NCBI RefSeq assembly: GCF_030295385.1
Contig: NZ_AP027079.1
Coordinates: 2,294,001-2,358,000, forward strand
DNA length: 64,000 nucleotides
Source of the DNA: Geothrix oryzae
Lineage (GTDB): Bacteria; Acidobacteriota; Holophagae; Holophagales; Holophagaceae
Reading direction: 5' to 3'
Position numbers and translations under genes: made by a program. The notes under the pieces are model-generated. The model did not search any database. It saw only the letters and a list, made by a program, of their open reading frames with translations, and was not told the DNA's origin. Within the stretch, counting starts at the first letter, position 1. Each line of letters begins with the position of its first letter. Positions 3,257 through 56,297 of the stretch are shown piece by piece.

Positions 3257-4752
3257 GCCGGACGCTCAGGGCCGCCGCCCTCGGCCTTCTCGCCTCCAGT
3301 CTCGGATCCAGTCTCGGCGCCGCGGCCCTGAAGGGCCGCATCACGGACGGCCACCGCGGCCTGGCGGGCGTGCGGGTCTATCCGGACCGCCAGCCGCGCA
3401 TCTCCCCCGCCGGGGATCCCCCCCTCGCCCTCACGGACGCGGACGGTTCCTTCCGTCTGGAGCTGGATCCCGGCGACCGCGTGCTGGCGGTGGAAAAGGA
3501 CGGCTGGCGCCGGGACCTCGTGCCGGCCTCCGAATGGAACCGCGAGGTGGTGCTGACGCCCGAACCAGGACACCGAGCGGAATCGGTGTTCATCGTGCGG
3601 CTGGATTTCACGGACGAGCCCTCGAAGCTGCCGGACGGGGCCCTGCGCGAGCTGATCTTCTCCCGTCGCCCCGGCGTGGCCAGCGCCGCCAACTACCTCT
3701 ACGAAGTCAGCAAGGGCGCCCTCTCCCTCGTGGAGGGCCGCTTCCTCAAGCTGCGCAGCGCCGACTTCCCCGCCCCCCGCACGGACGCCCACAAGGCCGC
3801 CATGGCCGAATGGGTGCTGGAGCGGCTCCGCGGGGAGGAACTCGGCGACTGCGACCGCATCGACAACCGCACCGGCGCCTTGAAGCCCGATGGCAAGCCC
3901 GACCACCTCTGGATCATCACGCCCGGCGCCCCCCAGTCCCTCACGGCCGACGAATCCCACCTCAAGGCGGTGAGCCTGCTGCTACCACTGCCCTGGGAGC
4001 GCTCCCGGCGCTGGCCCCTGCTCTTCATGACCGAGGAAGTGCCCCTGGGCAACATCGTCCACGAAACCTTCCACGGCATGGGCGAGCATCGCGTGGACGA
4101 CCTCTACCTGGGCTGCGAGGATCCCCTCACCGCCGGCATCTGGGATCTCATGGACGCGGGCCAGTACCGCGGCTGGGACCGCTCACACCCCGGGGAAGGC
4201 CCCTGGGTGGAGGACACAGGCTACAGCCCCTCCCATCCCATGGCCTGGGTGCGCTCGGAGCTCTGGTACCGGGGCCGGTTCCGCAGCGCCATCGCCCGCC
4301 ACGCCGTGAAGGGCCGAGCCTGGGAGGGCTGGATCGCCCCCGCCAGCCGCGCCCCCGGCGCCGATCCCCAGTGGGTCACCCTGCCCGATCCCCGCAAGAA
4401 GGGCCGCTTCTTCAGCCTCGAGGTGCGCCGCCCCTGGGGCTTCGAGCGGGGCCGCGTGGGCGGCCGCTTCGGCCCCGGCCACGAAGGCCTGATCGTCGCC
4501 CGCATCGATCCCTACCTCCTCAGTCCCGACGATCCCAAGGGCCCGGTGCGCGTGGTGGATGCCCATCCCGGCAGCCCCGAGCCCCCCAAGCCCCGCTTCC
4601 CCTGCGGACGCTGGGAACTGGACGACGCGGCCTTCAACCTGGGTCCCGGCGAGAACCCCAAGGGCCGCAGCGGGCCCCTCTCCTGGGAAGTGCTCGAGAC
4701 CGACGCCAGCGGCCGCATGCGGGTCAGGGTGGCGCTGGACCGTCCCCGCTGA
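3253..4752 (+). CDS. secreted M6-like zinc metalloprotease with N-terminal carboxypeptidase-regulatory-like domain
   Basis: 499 residues. An N-terminal signal peptide (about 1-24) precedes a small beta-sandwich of the carboxypeptidase-regulatory type (ALKGRITDGHRGLAGVRVYP, then DADGSFRLELDPG). The central part resembles the M6 (immune-inhibitor A) protease family: zinc motif HETFHGMGEHRVDDLY, followed by GIWDLMDAGQ and a HPMAWVRSELW segment, which parallel the HExxHxxGxxD, WDLM and P-W-K blocks of M6. The spacing after HExxH differs from the usual M6 arrangement, so the third zinc ligand could be the His or one of the Asp residues. It overlaps the response-regulator gene by 4 bases. The fold assignment is by motif only. 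Confidence 0.7.
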   Translation: MSRTLRAAALGLLASSLGSSLGAAALKGRITDGHRGLAGVRVYPDRQPRISPAGDPPLALTDADGSFRLELDPGDRVLAVEKDGWRRDLVPASEWNREVVLTPEPGHRAESVFIVRLDFTDEPSKLPDGALRELIFSRRPGVASAANYLYEVSKGALSLVEGRFLKLRSADFPAPRTDAHKAAMAEWVLERLRGEELGDCDRIDNRTGALKPDGKPDHLWIITPGAPQSLTADESHLKAVSLLLPLPWERSRRWPLLFMTEEVPLGNIVHETFHGMGEHRVDDLYLGCEDPLTAGIWDLMDAGQYRGWDRSHPGEGPWVEDTGYSPSHPMAWVRSELWYRGRFRSAIARHAVKGRAWEGWIAPASRAPGADPQWVTLPDPRKKGRFFSLEVRRPWGFERGRVGGRFGPGHEGLIVARIDPYLLSPDDPKGPVRVVDAHPGSPEPPKPRFPCGRWELDDAAFNLGPGENPKGRSGPLSWEVLETDASGRMRVRVALDRPR

Positions 4753-4776
4753 CACCGCCTTCCGCCGGAGTTCCCC

Positions 4777-5256
4777 GTGCGCCTTGCCCTGATCCCAGTC
4801 CTGATGCTCTGCCCTCCCCTTGTCCTTTCGGCGCAGTCGCCCACCGAAAAGGCCGTGGCGACCGTGCTGGACGACTGGCACCTGGCGGCGGCCCAGGCCG
4901 ATGAGGCCCGCTATTTCAGCCATCTCGCCGAGGGCGCCGTGTTCCTGGGCACGGACGCCACCGAGCGCTGGCCCAAGGCCGCCTTCCAGGCCTGGGCCCA
5001 CCCGATCTTCCTGCGCGGCAAGGCCTGGAGCTTCCGCGCCACGCGGCGGGCGATCACCCTGTCGAAGGACGGCCTCAGCGCCTGGTTCGACGAGGATCTC
5101 GACACCCCGAACCTGGGGCCCGCCCGGGGCGCCGGTGTGCTGACGCGGGAGCAGGACCGCTGGCTGATCCAGCAGTACAACCTCAGCGTGCCCATTCCCA
5201 ACGCCTTGATGAAGGCCGTGAGGGCTCAGATCGAAGAGCTGGCAAAAAAACCCTGA
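4777..5256 (+). CDS. secreted SnoaL/NTF2-like protein
   Basis: 159 residues with a signal peptide (MRLALIPVLMLCPPLVLSAQ). The rest looks like a SnoaL_3/NTF2-like cone fold: a helical start (VLDDWHLAAAQADEARYFSH), then FLGTDATERW, AFQAWAHP and a strand-rich end with GAGVLTREQDRWLIQQYNLS, which is typical of the family. Proteins of this type are often scored as ketosteroid-isomerase-like, but no catalytic residue can be assigned. The start is GTG at 4777 with CCGGAG 6 bases upstream. It lies 24 bases after the protease gene and 29 before the M28 peptidase, so it may share their transcript. Confidence 0.75.
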   Translation: MRLALIPVLMLCPPLVLSAQSPTEKAVATVLDDWHLAAAQADEARYFSHLAEGAVFLGTDATERWPKAAFQAWAHPIFLRGKAWSFRATRRAITLSKDGLSAWFDEDLDTPNLGPARGAGVLTREQDRWLIQQYNLSVPIPNALMKAVRAQIEELAKKP

Positions 5257-5274
5257 TTTATCGACTCTACCAAG

Positions 5275-5280
5275 TAAGAT
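5275..5280 (+). promoter_or_regulatory. TAAGAT box 5 bases before the ATG of the M28 peptidase
   Basis: TAAGAT followed by GAGGC and ATG (5286). It resembles a -10 element placed so that transcription would begin at or next to the start codon. GAGG within the gap could equally act as a ribosome site. No clear -35 is visible. It is one of five such arrangements in this window. Confidence 0.35.
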
Positions 5281-5285
5281 GAGGC

Positions 5286-6653
5286 ATGAACCTGACCCGA
5301 TGCCTCCTCCTCGTGACCGCGACAGCCCTCGGCGCGCAAACCTCCCCTGAGGCGCTGCGCGCCACCGCCGAGCGGCTTAGGACCGAAGCCTTCCGCACCC
5401 ACGGCGCCTACGAGGACCTGGCCTGGCTGTGCGACCGCATCGGCCACCGGCTGTCCGGCTCGCCCCAGCTCGACCAGGCCATCGCCTGGGCCCAGGACCG
5501 CATGAAGGCCGCCGGGTTGACCCAGGTCCACGCCGAACCCGTCATGGTGCCCCACTGGGTGCGGGGACAGGAGCGGGCTGAGATGCTGGCGCCCCTGCCC
5601 CAGCCGCTCCACATCCTGGGCCTGGGGGGCAGCGTGGGCACGCCCGAAGGCGGACTGACCGCGGAGGTGGTCGTGGTGGGCTCCTTCGACGAGCTGGATC
5701 GTCTGGGCGAAGCCGTGAAGGGGAAGATCGTCCTCTTCGATGTGCCCTACAAGGGCTACGGACACACGGTGGTCTACCGTCACGACGGCGCGCCCAAGGC
5801 CGCGAAGTACGGCGCCGTGGCCGCCCTGGTGCGGTCCGTGGGCCCCGTGAGCCTCGACACGCCCCACACCGGCGTCATGGACTACGATCCCGCCTTCCCG
5901 AAGATCCCCACGGCGTCCGTGACCCTCGAGGCCTCCACCCAGATGCGGCGCATGCAGGCGCGGGGCGAGCGCATCCGCGTGCACCTCGAGATGGGCGCGA
6001 AGACCCTGCCGGATGCGCCCTCGGCCAATGTGGTGGGCGAGATCCGCGGCACGGAGAAACCCGATGAAGTGGTGATCCTCAGCGGCCACCTGGACAGCTG
6101 GGATGTGGGCCAGGGCGCCCAGGACGACGGGGCCGGCACGGTCATCGCCCTGGAGGCCGCGCGGCTCATCCAGCGCCTCGGCCTGAAGCCCCGCCGGACC
6201 CTCCGCGTGGTGCTCTGGACCAATGAAGAGAACGGACTGCGCGGCGGCAAGGCCTACCGCGACGCCCACCTGGCCGAGTTCCCCCGCATCGTCGCCGCCT
6301 TTGAATCCGATTCGGGCAGCGAGCGCATCAAGGCGTTCAGCCTCGACCTCCGCAAGGCTGCGCCCGAGGCCAAGGCCGCCGCACTGGCCACTTTGAAGGG
6401 CCTGGGAGAAGCGCTCGGCTCCTTCGGCGCCGTGGACCTCCGCCTCGGCGGCTCCGGCGCGGATGTGAGCCCCATGGTCGCCGAGGGCGTGCCCGGCATC
6501 GGCGTGAGCCACGCGGCCACCCACTACTTCGACATCCACCACACCCACGCCGATACCTTCGACAAGGTGGAGAAGGATGACCTGGCCCACAACGCCGCGG
6601 TCCTGGCCGCCTTCGCCTACGCGCTCGCCCAGTCCGAAGCCCGGTTCAATTAG
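5286..6653 (+). CDS. secreted M28-family aminopeptidase (carboxypeptidase Q-like)
   Basis: 455 residues with a signal peptide (MNLTRCLLLVTATALGA). A PA-type domain is inserted at about residues 110-240 (KGKIVLFDVPY, AKYGAVAALVRS). The catalytic M28 domain follows with zinc-binding motifs SGHLDSWDVGQGAQDDGAG (His and Asp ligands), WTNEENGLRGG (catalytic Glu pair), FESDSGS (Asp ligand) and HTHADTFDKV (final His). The length and order fit the PA-M28 carboxypeptidase Q/glutamate carboxypeptidase group, exported enzymes that release amino acids from peptides. Its last 8 bases overlap the convergent FKBP gene. The start is ATG with GAGG just upstream. Confidence 0.9.
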   Translation: MNLTRCLLLVTATALGAQTSPEALRATAERLRTEAFRTHGAYEDLAWLCDRIGHRLSGSPQLDQAIAWAQDRMKAAGLTQVHAEPVMVPHWVRGQERAEMLAPLPQPLHILGLGGSVGTPEGGLTAEVVVVGSFDELDRLGEAVKGKIVLFDVPYKGYGHTVVYRHDGAPKAAKYGAVAALVRSVGPVSLDTPHTGVMDYDPAFPKIPTASVTLEASTQMRRMQARGERIRVHLEMGAKTLPDAPSANVVGEIRGTEKPDEVVILSGHLDSWDVGQGAQDDGAGTVIALEAARLIQRLGLKPRRTLRVVLWTNEENGLRGGKAYRDAHLAEFPRIVAAFESDSGSERIKAFSLDLRKAAPEAKAAALATLKGLGEALGSFGAVDLRLGGSGADVSPMVAEGVPGIGVSHAATHYFDIHHTHADTFDKVEKDDLAHNAAVLAAFAYALAQSEARFN

Positions 6654-50487: not shown

Positions 50488-51903
50488 ATGGACGCCCAAG
50501 AATTCCGCCGCCTCGGTTATCAGCTCGTGGACTGGATCGCGGACTACCGCGAAGGCCTGGAGCGCCTGCCGGTCATGAGCCAGGTGAAGCCCGGCGAGAT
50601 CCGGGCCGCCTTCCCGGATCACCCGCCCCAGCATGGGGGCCGCATGGCCCAGGCCCTGGCGGCCCTGGACCGGGATGTGATGCCGGGCATCACCCACTGG
50701 AACCATCCCTCCTTCTTCGCCTACTTCCCCAGCAACACCAGCTACAGCTCGATCCTCGGCGACCTCGCGGCGTCGGGCATCGGCGCCCAGGGCATGAGCT
50801 GGCAGACCAGTCCCGCGGCCACCGAGGTCGAAGAGGTCGTCATGGACTGGCTGCGTCAGATGGTGGGGCTGGGCCCCGATTTCACCGGCGTCATCCACGA
50901 CACCGCCAGCACCGCCACCTTCACCGCCCTGCTCTGCGCCCGGGAGAAAGCCTCGGACTACGCCCAGGACACCGAGGGGCTGCAGAGCGGCGAATCGCCC
51001 CTGGTGATCTACGCCACCGACCAGGGCCACAGCTCCATCGAAAAGGCCGCCCTGCTCGCCGGCTTCGGCCGCAGCTTCCTGCGTCTCATCCCCACCGACG
51101 ACCAGCACGCCATCCGCATGGACTTGCTGCAGGCCGCCATCGAGAAGGATCTGGAGATCGGCCTGCGGCCTTGCGCCCTCGTCGCGGCGGTCGGCACCAC
51201 GGGCACCACGGCCCTTGATCCGGTGGTGGCCATGGCGGACCTCGCCGAGAAGCACGGCCTGTGGCTCCATGTGGACGCGGCCCTGGCGGGCACGGCCATG
51301 GTGCTGCCCGAATGCCGCTGGATGTGGGCGGGCATCGAGCGGGCCGACAGCCTGGTGTTCAACCCCCACAAGTGGATGGGCGTGGGCTTCGACCTCAGCG
51401 CCTACTTCGTGCGCGATCCCCAGCACCTCATCCGCGTGATGAGCACCAACCCCAGCTACCTGCGCACGGCCCAGGACGGCCAGGTGAGCAACTTCCGGGA
51501 TTGGCACATCCAGCTCGGCCGCCGCTTCCGGGCTCTCAAGCTCTGGTTCTACCTCATGGATGTGGGCGTGGAGGGCCTGCAGGCCCGCCTGCGACGCGAC
51601 CTCGAGAATGCCCAGTGGCTGAAGGCGCAGGTGGACGCAGCCCCGGACTGGGAGCGCCTGGCACCCGTGCCCCTGCAGACCGTCTGCGTCCGCCACCTCA
51701 AGCCTGGGCTCGATGAACCCGGTCTCGCCGCCCACAACCTCGACATCGCCCGCCGCATCAACGATGGCGGCAAGGCCTATCTCACGCCCTCCCTGCTCAA
51801 GGGAACGCAGATCCTCCGCGTGAGCATCGGCGCCGAAACCACCGAACGGCGGCATGTCGAGGCCCTGTGGGAGGCCTTGAGGCACGCGGCGCTGGAGGCC
51901 TGA
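50488..51903 (+). CDS. PLP-dependent group II amino-acid decarboxylase (aromatic L-amino-acid decarboxylase-like)
   Basis: 471 residues. Family motifs: THWNHPSFFAYFPSNTSYSS near the N-terminus, SWQTSPAATEVEEVVMDWL, IHDTASTATFTAL, WLHVDAALAGTAM (PLP Asp) and the Schiff-base Lys in FNPHKWMGVGFD. The closest known family is the aromatic-L-amino-acid/tryptophan decarboxylases. It would produce an amine plus CO2 in the cytoplasm. I chose ATG 50488. A 212-bp gap containing a terminator separates it from the aminotransferase gene. Confidence 0.9.
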   Translation: MDAQEFRRLGYQLVDWIADYREGLERLPVMSQVKPGEIRAAFPDHPPQHGGRMAQALAALDRDVMPGITHWNHPSFFAYFPSNTSYSSILGDLAASGIGAQGMSWQTSPAATEVEEVVMDWLRQMVGLGPDFTGVIHDTASTATFTALLCAREKASDYAQDTEGLQSGESPLVIYATDQGHSSIEKAALLAGFGRSFLRLIPTDDQHAIRMDLLQAAIEKDLEIGLRPCALVAAVGTTGTTALDPVVAMADLAEKHGLWLHVDAALAGTAMVLPECRWMWAGIERADSLVFNPHKWMGVGFDLSAYFVRDPQHLIRVMSTNPSYLRTAQDGQVSNFRDWHIQLGRRFRALKLWFYLMDVGVEGLQARLRRDLENAQWLKAQVDAAPDWERLAPVPLQTVCVRHLKPGLDEPGLAAHNLDIARRINDGGKAYLTPSLLKGTQILRVSIGAETTERRHVEALWEALRHAALEA

Positions 51904-52046: not shown

Positions 52047-52079
52047 GTCGTCCTTGCGATTCCGCGAGGACGACCTTTT
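52047..52079 (+). terminator. intrinsic terminator or attenuator before the aminotransferase gene
   Basis: A 12-bp stem with one G-U pair (52047-52058 and 52063-52074, loop ATTC) is followed by CTTTTC. It lies 143 bases past the decarboxylase stop and 37 bases before the aminotransferase GTG. It could end the upstream transcript or, if the promoter is upstream of it, act as an attenuator. Confidence 0.65.
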
Positions 52080-52115: not shown

Positions 52116-53429
52116 GTGTCCGTGCCCCTGCTCTCTCCCGAGAAGCCTGCCTTCGCTGTACCTGAAGGGAACCTCGTCCCCGTGAGCGACCACCTGGGGC
52201 GGCTGCTGGCCATTCCACCTTCCCGCATGTTCCTCATCAACAAGTCGCTGAAGGTGTTCCAGGAGAAGCAGCCCGGCGTGCCGGTCTTCGACGCCAGCCA
52301 GGGCGACGGCGGGTCCTCCCTGCCGGGCGTGCCCGAAGCCCTGCTGGATCGCGCCTTCGAGCTGCAGAAGCAGCACGGCACGGCCTACGACATGCCCTTC
52401 GGCACCGAGGCGTACCGCAAGAGCGTGGCCGAGGCCTACTGGAAGCTGGCGCCGGACACAGGGTGGGGTCCGGCCAATGTCATCGGCACGCAGGGCGGCC
52501 GCGACGGCCTGCAGAAGGCCTACCAGGCCATGCTGGCCCTGGGCCACGGCCGCCAGGGCGATGTGGTCGTGGTGAGCCGCGTGCCCTGGATCAGCTACAA
52601 CTGGGGGCCGTACGGCATCGGCGCCAATGTCATGTGGGCCCCGGGCCGCGCCGAGGAGGGCTGGGCCTACTCGGAAGAAGGCCTCCGCGCCTGTGTGACG
52701 GAAGCGGCTGCGCAGGGCCGCAAGGTGGCGGGCCTGGTCATCACCAGCCCTGACAATCCCACTGGACAGACCCTCACGCTGGCGCGCCAGATCGAGCTGG
52801 CCCGCGCGGCGCTGGAAGCGGGCGTGGCCTTCGTGCTCTTCGACTGGATGTACCACGCCGTGGGCGACGGCGAGCCCTACGATGTGAATGTGCTGTTGCG
52901 GGCCTTCGAGCCCGCGCTCCGCAAGCGGCTCATGGTGCTGGACGGCATCACCAAGAGCCTGGGCGGTTCGAACATCCGCAACTGCCATCTGCTGGCGGAC
53001 GCCGAGGTGGTGAAGACCATCGTGGCCCAGGCCTCGCACACGGTGATCCCCTCCTTCTTCAGTCTGGCAGTGGCCATGGCCGCCTACGAGAAGGGCTTTG
53101 CCGCCGCCAGCGCGCCCATCGCCGGTCCCACCCGCGCCAGCCGCGCCTGGCTGCGCGAGTTCCTGAAGGCCCAAGGGCTCACCCACATCATCGGGCAGGG
53201 CTATTACGCCTTCATCAAGGTGGCCGAGGTTCTGAAGGCCAGAGGCTGGGCCGATTCGGAACCCATGGGCCAGCACCTCGCCGAGAACCATGGCGTGGCC
53301 GTTGTGCCCGGGGCCTTCTTCAGCCCCTACGGCGCCGAGTGGATCCGCTTCTCCTACGCCACGCCCCCCGAACGCACCCAGGGCGCCGCCGAGCGGCTCG
53401 TCGCGGCCCTCAAGTCCCTTCAGAGCTGA
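52116..53429 (+). CDS. PLP-dependent class I/II aminotransferase
   Basis: 437 residues. Fold-type I motifs are visible: DASQGDGGSSLPGVPEALL, GTEAYRKSVAEAYW, VITSPDNPTGQTLT (PLP Asn), FVLFDWMYHAVG (PLP Asp/Tyr) and the Schiff-base Lys in LDGITKSLGGSNIRN. The C-terminal Arg region is IRFSYATPPE. Substrate specificity cannot be read by eye. The start is GTG with GGAGG upstream. It is 60 bases before the ligase-hydrolase fusion gene on the same strand, so a shared transcript is likely. Confidence 0.88.
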   Translation: MSVPLLSPEKPAFAVPEGNLVPVSDHLGRLLAIPPSRMFLINKSLKVFQEKQPGVPVFDASQGDGGSSLPGVPEALLDRAFELQKQHGTAYDMPFGTEAYRKSVAEAYWKLAPDTGWGPANVIGTQGGRDGLQKAYQAMLALGHGRQGDVVVVSRVPWISYNWGPYGIGANVMWAPGRAEEGWAYSEEGLRACVTEAAAQGRKVAGLVITSPDNPTGQTLTLARQIELARAALEAGVAFVLFDWMYHAVGDGEPYDVNVLLRAFEPALRKRLMVLDGITKSLGGSNIRNCHLLADAEVVKTIVAQASHTVIPSFFSLAVAMAAYEKGFAAASAPIAGPTRASRAWLREFLKAQGLTHIIGQGYYAFIKVAEVLKARGWADSEPMGQHLAENHGVAVVPGAFFSPYGAEWIRFSYATPPERTQGAAERLVAALKSLQS

Positions 53430-53489: not shown

Positions 53490-56297
53490 GTGTTCGACCT
53501 GAACGCCTTCGTCGAGAAGTTCCAGCTGGCCCGGCAGACGGCGCTGGAGACCCGCCCCACCGGCGGGCTCTGCGGCCTGGAGCTGGAGTGGAACCTGGTC
53601 GATCCCCAGTTCCGTCCGCTGCTCACCGTGGGCACCGGTCCCGACCGCATGTCCTTCGTGGACCACCTTCGCACGAAGGTGCTGTCGCCCTGGACGGAGG
53701 AGTATCACCAGCTGGAGGTCTTCCACTGGATGATCGAGTGGGTGACCCGGCCCTACCACACGCCCAAGGGCGCCGTGTACGAAGGCCGCCTTCTGGAGGC
53801 CGCCCTCATCAACGCCCTGGCCAAGGCGGGCCGGACCTTCGGTGAGCCCCTCCACTACTGGCACGGCAACCTGCTCGTGCTGCCCGAGATCGGCCCCGAC
53901 TGCGTGCCCATGTCCTGGCACCTGGCCAAGCGCCGCTACCTCCAGCGGTGCGTCGAGCTGTACGGCACCGAGCTGGCCACGGCGGGCACCCACTCCAACC
54001 TGAGCCTGCCCGAGCCCATGCTGGCCTGGGACTTCATGCACCTGCCCGCCTCCGAGCGCGGCGACCGCCACCTGGACGACTACAAGAACCAGGTCTACAT
54101 CACTGGCACCCGCCTCATGCGGGCCTTCGCCGCGCTCTTCATCGCCGCCAGCGCCAGCACGCCGCTGCAGGCTTCATTGGAGGACGGCAAGCCCGTGGTG
54201 CGGCTCACGCCCTTCGAATCCGTGCGCAACCTGACCTTCCCGAATCCGCCCGCCCTGGATGTGCCGGATCTCAACCGCAGCCACTCCGACTACCTGCGCC
54301 TGTCCTACGACCTGGTGCGGCGCGGCGTGCGTTTCGGCAACAACAACTGGATCCCCGTGCGCGCCCGCTCGCAGGCCGAGCCCGTGGAGCGCCTCATCCA
54401 GGTCACCAGCGACCAGCTGCACGACATCTACGCCCGCGGCCTCTTCGCCGCCGGGGAAACGAGGAATGTGGAGGACATGGCGGCCCAGATCGAACGCCAG
54501 AACCTCTTCGCCCGCATCGACCTGCCCATGGCCCGCGTGGAGGTACGCACGGACGACCCCGGCCATGAGCTGGCCCTGGATGTGGCCAACCTCACCCTGA
54601 AGCACCTGCTGCTGCTCCGCTTCTACGCGGATCCCGACTTCGCCCGCGGCTTCCGCTACGACGCGGAGGACATCAAGCGGGCCCGCCGCAACGAGGAGCT
54701 GGCCGCCCGGGAGGGCCTCCGCGCGGTCATCGAGGATCCCCTCACGGCCAAGCCCATCGCCCTGCACGCCTTCCTGGACTGGACGCTGCAGCAGCTGCGG
54801 CCCATGGCCGAAGCCCTGGGCATGTGGGGCGACCTCCAGCCCCTGCGCGACCTGGCCGCCGGCGCGCCCAGCACCGCCGAGAAGATCCGCCAGCGGCTGA
54901 AGGCGAAGCTGGGCGGCTCGGACATCGTGCCGCCCTCACTGCTCGTGGAGCTGGCCGAGGCCCGGAAGACCCAGGTGCACGACGATGTGGAGACCATCAC
55001 CGCCCACATCGCCGACCTGGGCGGCGAGGAAGGGAAGCTCCGGGACTTCCTGGAACGGGCCCGCGACGAGGTGCACCTCGATCCCCAGGCGCCCGTGCGC
55101 TTCCGGCCCCGGCGCGAAACCCTGATCGATGCGGACTATCCCGACAAGGCGACGGAGGTCCTGGCCCTGTCCCAGCGCCTGGTGCGCATCCCCAGCGTCA
55201 CGGCCTGTCCCGAGGAGCGGCTCCCGGAAGTCCACCGCGCCGCCACCTTCATCTACGACTACCTGCAGAACCATGGCGTGCCCGTGCGCACCTTCGACCA
55301 GGGGCCCTTCCCCGCCATCCTGGCCCACTTCCCCGGGGGCGAGCAGGCCCCGGCCATGCTGTGCGGCCACTTCGATGTGGTGGAGCCGGAACCCGACGAC
55401 AGCCAGTTCGAGCCCCGCATCGAAGGCGACTACCTCTGGGGTCGCGGCGCGGCGGACATGAAGACCGTGGTGTCCACCTACCTCGTGTGGATGAAGGACA
55501 CCCTCAAGAAGGGCGCCCCCTACCCGCCCGTGAACCTGCTGCTGGTGGGCAACGAGGAGAACGGCGAGCTGGAGCCCATGGGCACGCCCCATGTGCTGAA
55601 GCTGCTGAAGGAGGAATCGGGCTATGAACCGGCCTTCTTCGTGGCGGGCGAGCGCACCGGCGAGAAGGGCACCGAACTGTGGGGCGAGGTCTGCACCCAG
55701 AACCGCGGGGTTCTGCGCTTCGAGCTCATCGCCCACGGCACCCGCGGTCACAGCGGCTTGGCGGGGGGGAGCGACCTCACGGAGCGCCTGCTGGGCGCCC
55801 GCGAAGCCCTGCGCGAGCTGTTCGCGAAGCACCTGACGCTGAAGTCGGCCGACGGTTGGCAGTCCCTCGCCCGCTTCGCCTACATCCAGGTGGGCACGCC
55901 CGGCATCTACAACATCACGCCGGACCGCGGCTCGCTCGGCGCGGAGATCCGCCCCATCCCGCAGGACGATGTGTCCCGGCTGCGCGCCGACATCGAGGCC
56001 CTGGCCGCCGACCTGCAGCTGGAGTTCCTGCCCTCGGCCTGGGAGCCCGGCATGGCCTGCCACCCCGAGAATCCCCACCTGAAGGCACTGCTGGCGGGCA
56101 TCACAGCGGCGGGTGGTGAGGTGCGCCTGGGCCGCAAGGGCGCAGGGACCTCCGCCCGCTTCGCCCCCGGCGGTCAGGGCGTGGTTTGGGGGCAGACCGG
56201 CATCGGTCCCCACGCCGCCGGCGAGCGCCACTACATCCCCAGCATCGACCCCTACTACCGCGCGCTGGAGGCTTTCGCGGCGCAGCTGAAGGCCTGA
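53490..56297 (+). CDS. fusion of a glutamate-cysteine-ligase-like (GCS2) domain to an M20 metallohydrolase
   Basis: 935 residues in one uninterrupted frame. Residues 1 to about 530 resemble the GCS2 carboxylate-amine ligase family: GLELEW at 29-34, EVFHWMIEWVTRP, GTHSNLSLPEP at 166, and ARIDLPMARVEVRTDD. Residues 545-935 are an M20 (ArgE/DapE/carnosinase-like) domain with its dizinc ligands: CGHFDVVEP (His627, Asp629), GRGAADMKT (Asp656), NEENGE (catalytic Glu near 689), GERTGE (Glu721) and ERHYIPS (His914). Both halves look catalytically intact. The product would be a ligase and an amide hydrolase in one chain. The start is GTG with GGAG upstream. It follows a PLP aminotransferase gene. Confidence 0.85.
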   Translation: MFDLNAFVEKFQLARQTALETRPTGGLCGLELEWNLVDPQFRPLLTVGTGPDRMSFVDHLRTKVLSPWTEEYHQLEVFHWMIEWVTRPYHTPKGAVYEGRLLEAALINALAKAGRTFGEPLHYWHGNLLVLPEIGPDCVPMSWHLAKRRYLQRCVELYGTELATAGTHSNLSLPEPMLAWDFMHLPASERGDRHLDDYKNQVYITGTRLMRAFAALFIAASASTPLQASLEDGKPVVRLTPFESVRNLTFPNPPALDVPDLNRSHSDYLRLSYDLVRRGVRFGNNNWIPVRARSQAEPVERLIQVTSDQLHDIYARGLFAAGETRNVEDMAAQIERQNLFARIDLPMARVEVRTDDPGHELALDVANLTLKHLLLLRFYADPDFARGFRYDAEDIKRARRNEELAAREGLRAVIEDPLTAKPIALHAFLDWTLQQLRPMAEALGMWGDLQPLRDLAAGAPSTAEKIRQRLKAKLGGSDIVPPSLLVELAEARKTQVHDDVETITAHIADLGGEEGKLRDFLERARDEVHLDPQAPVRFRPRRETLIDADYPDKATEVLALSQRLVRIPSVTACPEERLPEVHRAATFIYDYLQNHGVPVRTFDQGPFPAILAHFPGGEQAPAMLCGHFDVVEPEPDDSQFEPRIEGDYLWGRGAADMKTVVSTYLVWMKDTLKKGAPYPPVNLLLVGNEENGELEPMGTPHVLKLLKEESGYEPAFFVAGERTGEKGTELWGEVCTQNRGVLRFELIAHGTRGHSGLAGGSDLTERLLGAREALRELFAKHLTLKSADGWQSLARFAYIQVGTPGIYNITPDRGSLGAEIRPIPQDDVSRLRADIEALAADLQLEFLPSAWEPGMACHPENPHLKALLAGITAAGGEVRLGRKGAGTSARFAPGGQGVVWGQTGIGPHAAGERHYIPSIDPYYRALEAFAAQLKA

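Follow-up and report, generated by a model that had tools for sequence, protein, structure and literature searches.

Why does a single protein of Geothrix oryzae combine an amide-forming ligase with an amide-cleaving hydrolase, and what does the aminotransferase encoded next to it contribute? We addressed this question by computational analysis of a 64,000-nucleotide stretch of the genome (contig NZ_AP027079.1, positions 2,294,001 to 2,358,000), here called the window, and of related loci in other bacteria. The features under consideration are as follows, with positions counted within the window:

50488-51903: group II PLP decarboxylase gene, conserved in Holophagaceae and untied to the module
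52047-52074, forward strand: terminator-like hairpin between the decarboxylase and aminotransferase genes (consensus match only)
52116-53429, forward strand: gene for a 437-aa class-I PLP aminotransferase resembling aspartate aminotransferase, 60 bp ahead of the fusion gene
53490-56297, forward strand: fusion gene, ligase and hydrolase in one protein (single open frame, 935 aa, GTG start)
53490-54989, forward strand: N-terminal half (residues 1 to about 500), a carboxylate-amine ligase of the YbdK/GCS2 type
54990-55136, forward strand: helical linker, about residues 501-549, fast evolving
55137-56294, forward strand: M20 dizinc amidohydrolase half, about residues 550-935

The fusion gene runs from a GTG start at 53490 through an uninterrupted frame of 935 codons to the last base of the stop codon at 56297, and an AlphaFold model of the single chain, built from 38 homologues, has a mean pLDDT of 87 and a pTM of 0.73. 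In an initial annotation of the window it was proposed that this chain holds two apparently intact enzymes, which is borne out by the family assignments and the invariant active sites described below. Based on a profile-profile match and on superposition of the AlphaFold model, the N-terminal half is a ligase of the YbdK/GCS2 type and the C-terminal half an M20 amidohydrolase resembling DapE and ArgE.

Taken alone, the N-terminal half of the window protein has no Pfam match, which is why genome searches with the GCS2 and Glu_cys_ligase models came back empty; within the fusion family, GCS2 matches seven of 19 members (best E-value 5e-6) and Glu_cys_ligase eight of 19 (best 1.3e-3). Using hhalign, columns 27-461 of a ligase-half profile were aligned with columns 11-342 of YbdK-type GCS2 (probability 96.6, E 6e-10), a match that spans nearly the whole catalytic domain, and profile-profile comparison with class-I GshA gave an E-value of 5e-5. 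Residues 14-497 of the model superpose on the YbdK-type structure 1tt4 with a Z-score of 31.3 and on 1r8g with a Z-score of 29.9 (rmsd 2.9, 340 residues aligned). The ligase motifs are GxExE at residues 29-33, E76, E83, H168, S244-x-R246 and E351-x-R353. The concern that this half might have lost active-site residues is answered by an alignment of 137 homologues, in which G29, E31, E33, E76, E83, H168, R246 and E351 show no substitution in any of the 126-129 sequences that cover them, and R353 is kept in 128 of 129. These residues correspond to GhExE, which is the Mg/ATP signature of the GCS2-type ligase superfamily, and to other metal and ATP residues of that superfamily, whose members couple an activated carboxylate, usually the glutamate gamma-carboxylate, to an amine (PMC2588565). 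From its membership of the GCS2 family, the ligase half is predicted to transfer a gamma-glutamyl group to an amine at the expense of ATP.

The C-terminal half is matched by Pfam Peptidase_M20 above the cut-off (E 4e-16), and its nearest solved relatives are DapE, ArgE, LysK and the uncharacterised 2rb7; residues 549-935 of the model give a Z-score of 35.8 with 2rb7 and of 33-34 with DapE. None of the specific families is reached, the best DapE model of NCBIfam scoring 87.8 bits against a cut-off of 284 and the ArgE-type and LysK-type models listed for the fusion likewise remaining under their cut-offs. Among the 137 aligned homologues, H627, D629, D656, E689, E690 and E721 are invariant in the 134-135 covering sequences; by homology E689 is the catalytic base, position 721 is a Glu rather than an Asp, as in DapE and ArgE, and His754 sits at the position of the DapE oxyanion His. 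The six invariant residues had been named in the initial annotation, together with His914 as the last ligand. Alignment with E. coli DapE and ArgE instead places the C-terminal metal-ligand motif, HxxxE, at H908-x-x-x-E912, so that the ligand is His908, which is invariant in alignment A3, whereas H914 is conserved but is not the C-terminal zinc ligand.

Among Geothrix relatives, dN/dS lies between 0.07 and 0.18 in the ligase half and between 0.09 and 0.22 in the M20 half, compared with 0.16-0.50 in residues 471-550, the linker region. These values indicate that both halves are under purifying selection and that neither is decaying.

The fusion is not an accident of one genome, since full-length homologues with 48-99% identity are present in Holophagaceae, Anaerolineae and other Acidobacteriota/Aminicenantes. 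A scan of GTDB contigs returned 105 confirmed fusion loci, of which 80 were kept, with identities of 77-99% in Geothrix and other Holophagaceae, 57-67% in Anaerolineae and about 60% in one Candidatus Aminicenantes contig; whole-genome searches added further Acidobacteriota families at 48-53%. The Geothrix fusions are nearer to those of Chloroflexota than to those of these other Acidobacteriota families, which suggests horizontal transfer. In a profile search of 251 Chloroflexota genomes the ligase half was detected in eight, each time within an open frame of more than 930 aa and never as a stand-alone protein, and with a full-length query every ligase match in Acidobacteriota either belonged to a long frame or sat on a broken contig. 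A plasmid search for a stand-alone ligase half was likewise empty. In one locus (L051), positions 329-511, which lie about 1.5 kb before the fusion, resemble fusion residues 9-69 (43%) and may be the remnant of a duplicated ligase half. An apparent triple fusion of aminotransferase, ligase and M20 hydrolase (L108, 166-4323, 1385 aa) was discarded because it most likely reflects a frameshift in a draft genome; a normal aminotransferase C-terminus and stop codon are found in the +1 frame just ahead of the fusion start. The remark in the initial annotation that no enzyme of this architecture has been described holds within the literature searched, where we found no description of GCS2 joined to M20 with a near-obligate aminotransferase; an earlier listing may exist. 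Each domain is already known in kind, and the apparently new part is the ligase-M20 combination and its near-obligate partner.

This partner, the aminotransferase at 52116-53429, is matched by PF00155 (E 8e-24, 85 bits against a cut-off of 19.7) and conserves the class-I residues K280, D243, N214, Y246, R288 and R411. Its structural model most closely resembles aspartate and prephenate aminotransferases; DapC, LL-DAP aminotransferase and GntC are within range as well. None of its best 25 NCBIfam models reaches the cut-off, the best being GntC with 97.6 bits against 415. The initial annotation proposed that conservation of its adjacency to the fusion be checked, and in all 66 loci in which both genes were recovered in full the aminotransferase lies upstream on the same strand, with a gap of 3-340 bp in 55 loci and of 0.6-2.1 kb in eleven; where genes are inserted between the two in some Chloroflexota, they belong to no conserved family. 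The pairwise divergences of the ligase half, the M20 half and the aminotransferase are correlated (r 0.95-0.96). In a set of 297 Acidobacteriota genomes, and with an E-value limit of 1e-50, an orthologue is present in 32 of the 32 with the fusion or the M20 half, namely 31 with the fusion and one with the M20 half only, and in none of the 265 others; among 251 Chloroflexota genomes it is present in all eight with the fusion and in two others. Genomes of one lineage are not independent, and the association is seen in several separate lineages. The aminotransferase is therefore a real, near-obligate partner of the fusion. Chloroflexota orthologues (56-67%) that adjoin neither fusion half were seen at 4722-5999 (+) in L187 and at 4635-5945 (+) in L188.

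It had been suggested that the decarboxylase at 50488 could supply an amine; it is found in Geothrix/Holophagaceae loci only and in none of the Chloroflexota loci, its distance to the aminotransferase in Holophagaceae is usually about 2.5 kb or more, and its nearest NCBIfam model, L-2,4-diaminobutyrate decarboxylase, is far under cut-off. On its conservation pattern, we rejected it as part of the module. The terminator said to separate it from the module does have a counterpart in the hairpin at 52047-52074, but this region is not enriched in hairpins of that kind relative to shuffled sequences. Genes beside the module in L032, L038 and L072 that had been considered as a peptide transporter encode a phosphomutase, a TatD nuclease and a polyprenyl synthetase, and this candidate was dropped. 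When neighbours were clustered, and some of the nearest scanned, no kinase, reductase or carrier protein gene was seen with the module. In two distant Chloroflexota genomes, a gene for a LysE/RhtC-type amino-acid exporter follows the fusion directly on the same strand (L032, 10832-11473; L072, 10861-11493).

The reading that we favour, with a probability of about 0.36, is that the two genes form a metabolic module working by protection, transamination and release, the blocking group probably being free glutamate. According to this proposal, the ligase half would attach glutamate, the donor expected of the GCS2 family, as a blocking group; the adjacent class-I aminotransferase would then act on the blocked intermediate; and the M20 half would finally hydrolyse the amide to give glutamate and a new amino acid. 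Both the order of these steps and the blocked intermediate belong to the proposal. The computed support consists of the conserved, intact ligase and hydrolase sites, the fusion itself and the near-obligate aminotransferase, and the LysE-type exporter after the fusion in two distant genomes also counts in its favour. It has been reported that DapC/DapE, LysJ/LysK and ArgD/ArgE catalyse homologous aminotransferase and hydrolase steps in amino-blocked pathways, that DapE, ArgE and LysK each strip the blocking group once the aminotransferase has acted, and that LysX joins an amino group to the gamma-carboxyl of Glu (PMC10433800). With M20 relatives that deblock after transamination, a conserved aminotransferase/M20 pair and the chemistry of GCS2 ligases, protection, transamination and release is an economical proposal. 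Against it, class-I aminotransferases commonly use free amino acids, no linked kinase or reductase was seen, and the aminotransferase is present without the ligase half in two Chloroflexota.

The invariance of both active sites and the exporter gene would also be consistent with a synthetase-amidase switch, in which the ligase half converts an amino acid into a gamma-glutamyl amide for masking or storage, the M20 half sets it free on demand and the aminotransferase uses up or supplies the free amino acid. Trypanothione synthetase-amidase provides a precedent for opposing synthetase and amidase activities in one chain (PMC2784880). We consider such a switch unlikely; it does not need the strict tie to one aminotransferase, and loss of the ligase would deprive the hydrolase of its own substrate.

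Such a loss seems to have taken place. In one Acidobacteriota family, three genomes (G294, G635 and G636) lack the ligase half at the locus, and directly after the aminotransferase comes a free-standing M20 enzyme, whose length is about 400 aa in the two genomes in which it could be delimited:

L111, 5142-4015, reverse strand: free-standing M20 beside the same aminotransferase, apparently derived from the fusion by ligase loss
L189, 2120-3319, forward strand: free-standing M20 beside the same aminotransferase, of the same apparent origin
L190, 1465-2703, forward strand: free-standing M20 beside the same aminotransferase, likewise

A profile search found the ligase half nowhere in the 96% complete genome G294, and in two Chloroflexota genomes the aminotransferase is present while a ligase half of any kind is absent. 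In a tree of the M20 half, a quick tree with moderate supports, the free-standing enzymes belong to two different branches, both lying within the fused relatives, so that on the simplest reading the ligase half would have been lost at least twice, with the aminotransferase and the M20 hydrolase as the core pair.

A ligase half that is dispensable in three genomes on two branches counts against our favoured reading and speaks against a simple obligatory cycle of protection and release, unless another enzyme substitutes. It would be accommodated by a forward assembly line, in which the M20 half unmasks an amine (e.g. of an N-acyl amino acid or a dipeptide), the aminotransferase makes or modifies the amino acid and the ligase half then glutamylates it, the two halves acting on different bonds and the end product being like a gamma-glutamyl dipeptide. 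Loss of this last step would leave a working aminotransferase and M20 enzyme, as observed; moreover, fused enzymes usually catalyse consecutive steps, and GCS2-type ligases normally yield products such as gamma-glutamylcysteine. We nevertheless regard this order of events as improbable, since across lineages the module is accompanied by no other conserved gene for tailoring or export. The retained core would also suit salvage or catabolism, in which an N-acyl or gamma-glutamyl amino acid is broken down by the M20 enzyme and the aminotransferase, with the ligase half providing a side or regulatory activity or making the conjugate for detoxification. This is, in our view, quite unlikely: no conserved importer or catabolic gene was seen at the loci, the ligase site does not vary in any sequence that retains this half, even within the family that has lost it elsewhere, and the ligase dN/dS of 0.07-0.18 given above argues, together with this invariance, that the half is not a relic. 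Retention of the aminotransferase and the M20 hydrolase also counts for protection, transamination and release, by analogy with DapC and DapE, which would be retained in the same manner. Since the double loss suits the assembly line and salvage at least equally well, the favoured mechanism is held at the probability given above. The idea of a protect-modify-release logic put forward in the initial annotation thus stands as regards the intact sites and the aminotransferase linkage, but without support for a role of the decarboxylase, and with the ligase losses speaking against a simple obligatory cycle.

The identity of the product was considered with regard to arginine. If the module replaced the acylated (ornithine) branch of arginine biosynthesis, the ligase would stand in for ArgA/ArgJ and the M20 half for ArgE. 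ArgJ was found in none of 15 module genomes tested compared with six of 20 others, and in L061, L070 and L074 the fusion is followed by argG and argH, though these loci represent one Anaerolineales clade with fusion identities of 70-80%. In L070 an N-acetylglutamate-synthase-like gene also adjoins argG. The window genome has a separate cluster of argD, an argF-like gene, argB, argE, argH, argG and argC (L146, 585-9689, at about 3.012-3.021 Mb of the genome), with no detectable match for ArgJ, and ArgC is missing or under cut-off in five of 12 module genomes. Owing to these ArgC gaps and to the window genome's own argD/argE cluster, we reject arginine as the general function of the module and consider it unlikely in the window genome; ornithine is an unlikely general product, and replacement of the acylated branch is very improbable.

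Returning to protection, transamination and release, the further proposal that this constitutes an undescribed biosynthetic pathway of Geothrix, Anaerolineae and Aminicenantes-type bacteria, with a bifunctional protein adding and removing free glutamate around a transamination, is tentative and somewhat doubtful. If true, glutamate would join acetyl, succinyl and LysW as a new way of blocking, and the purpose of one group of YbdK-like ligases would be explained. The module itself is a conserved pair of genes in more than 100 genomes of poorly characterised, largely anaerobic groups, in which ligase and hydrolase chemistry share one chain next to a dedicated aminotransferase and from which nature appears to have removed the ligase at least twice.

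Several known systems resemble the module in part. With the YbdK/GCS2 ligases (PF04107; 1r8g, 1tt4) the ligase half shares the fold, GxExE, the His of the catalytic region, E-x-R and the C-terminal region, whereas it is too distant for Pfam, has insertions and carries the M20 domain. The bifunctional glutathione synthetase GshF (GshAB) also has a GCS-type ligase at the N terminus of a two-enzyme chain (Z 26-27), but its second domain is another ligase and not a hydrolase. DapE, ArgE and LysK (PF01546) have in common with the M20 half all dizinc ligands, the catalytic Glu, Glu721, the His at the oxyanion position, Arg821 and Asn808, although identity is about 18-22%, NCBIfam scores are far under the cut-offs and the window enzyme is fused to a ligase. 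The Desulfovibrio M20 metallopeptidase 2rb7 is the closest solved structure (Z 35.8, 28% identity), yet is stand-alone and uncharacterised. The trypanothione/glutathionylspermidine synthetase-amidases have a ligase of the ATP-grasp type, and their domains are unrelated to those of the fusion, their amidase is a cysteine amidase and they have no aminotransferase partner. What they share with the fusion is ATP-dependent amide synthesis and hydrolysis in one chain (PMC2784880).

At the level of pathways, the likeness to putrescine (Puu) catabolism drawn in the initial annotation is a loose one, PuuA being a glutamine-synthetase-type enzyme and the Puu intermediate being oxidised, and the logic of DapC/DapE, ArgD/ArgE and LysJ/LysK would be a better analogy. 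The LysX-type ligase of the LysW/ArgW carrier pathway is an ATP-grasp enzyme, unrelated to the GCS2 type. In that pathway (LysX, LysJ, LysK), as proposed here, a block on the gamma-carboxyl of Glu is followed by transamination and release by an M20 enzyme (PMC10433800), but it employs a carrier protein, a kinase and a reductase, none of which was seen among the neighbours of the fusion module. The module would follow the same logic of protection, transamination and release as DapD/DapC/DapE and LysX/LysJ/LysK, and would differ from both in that free glutamate is the likely blocking group.
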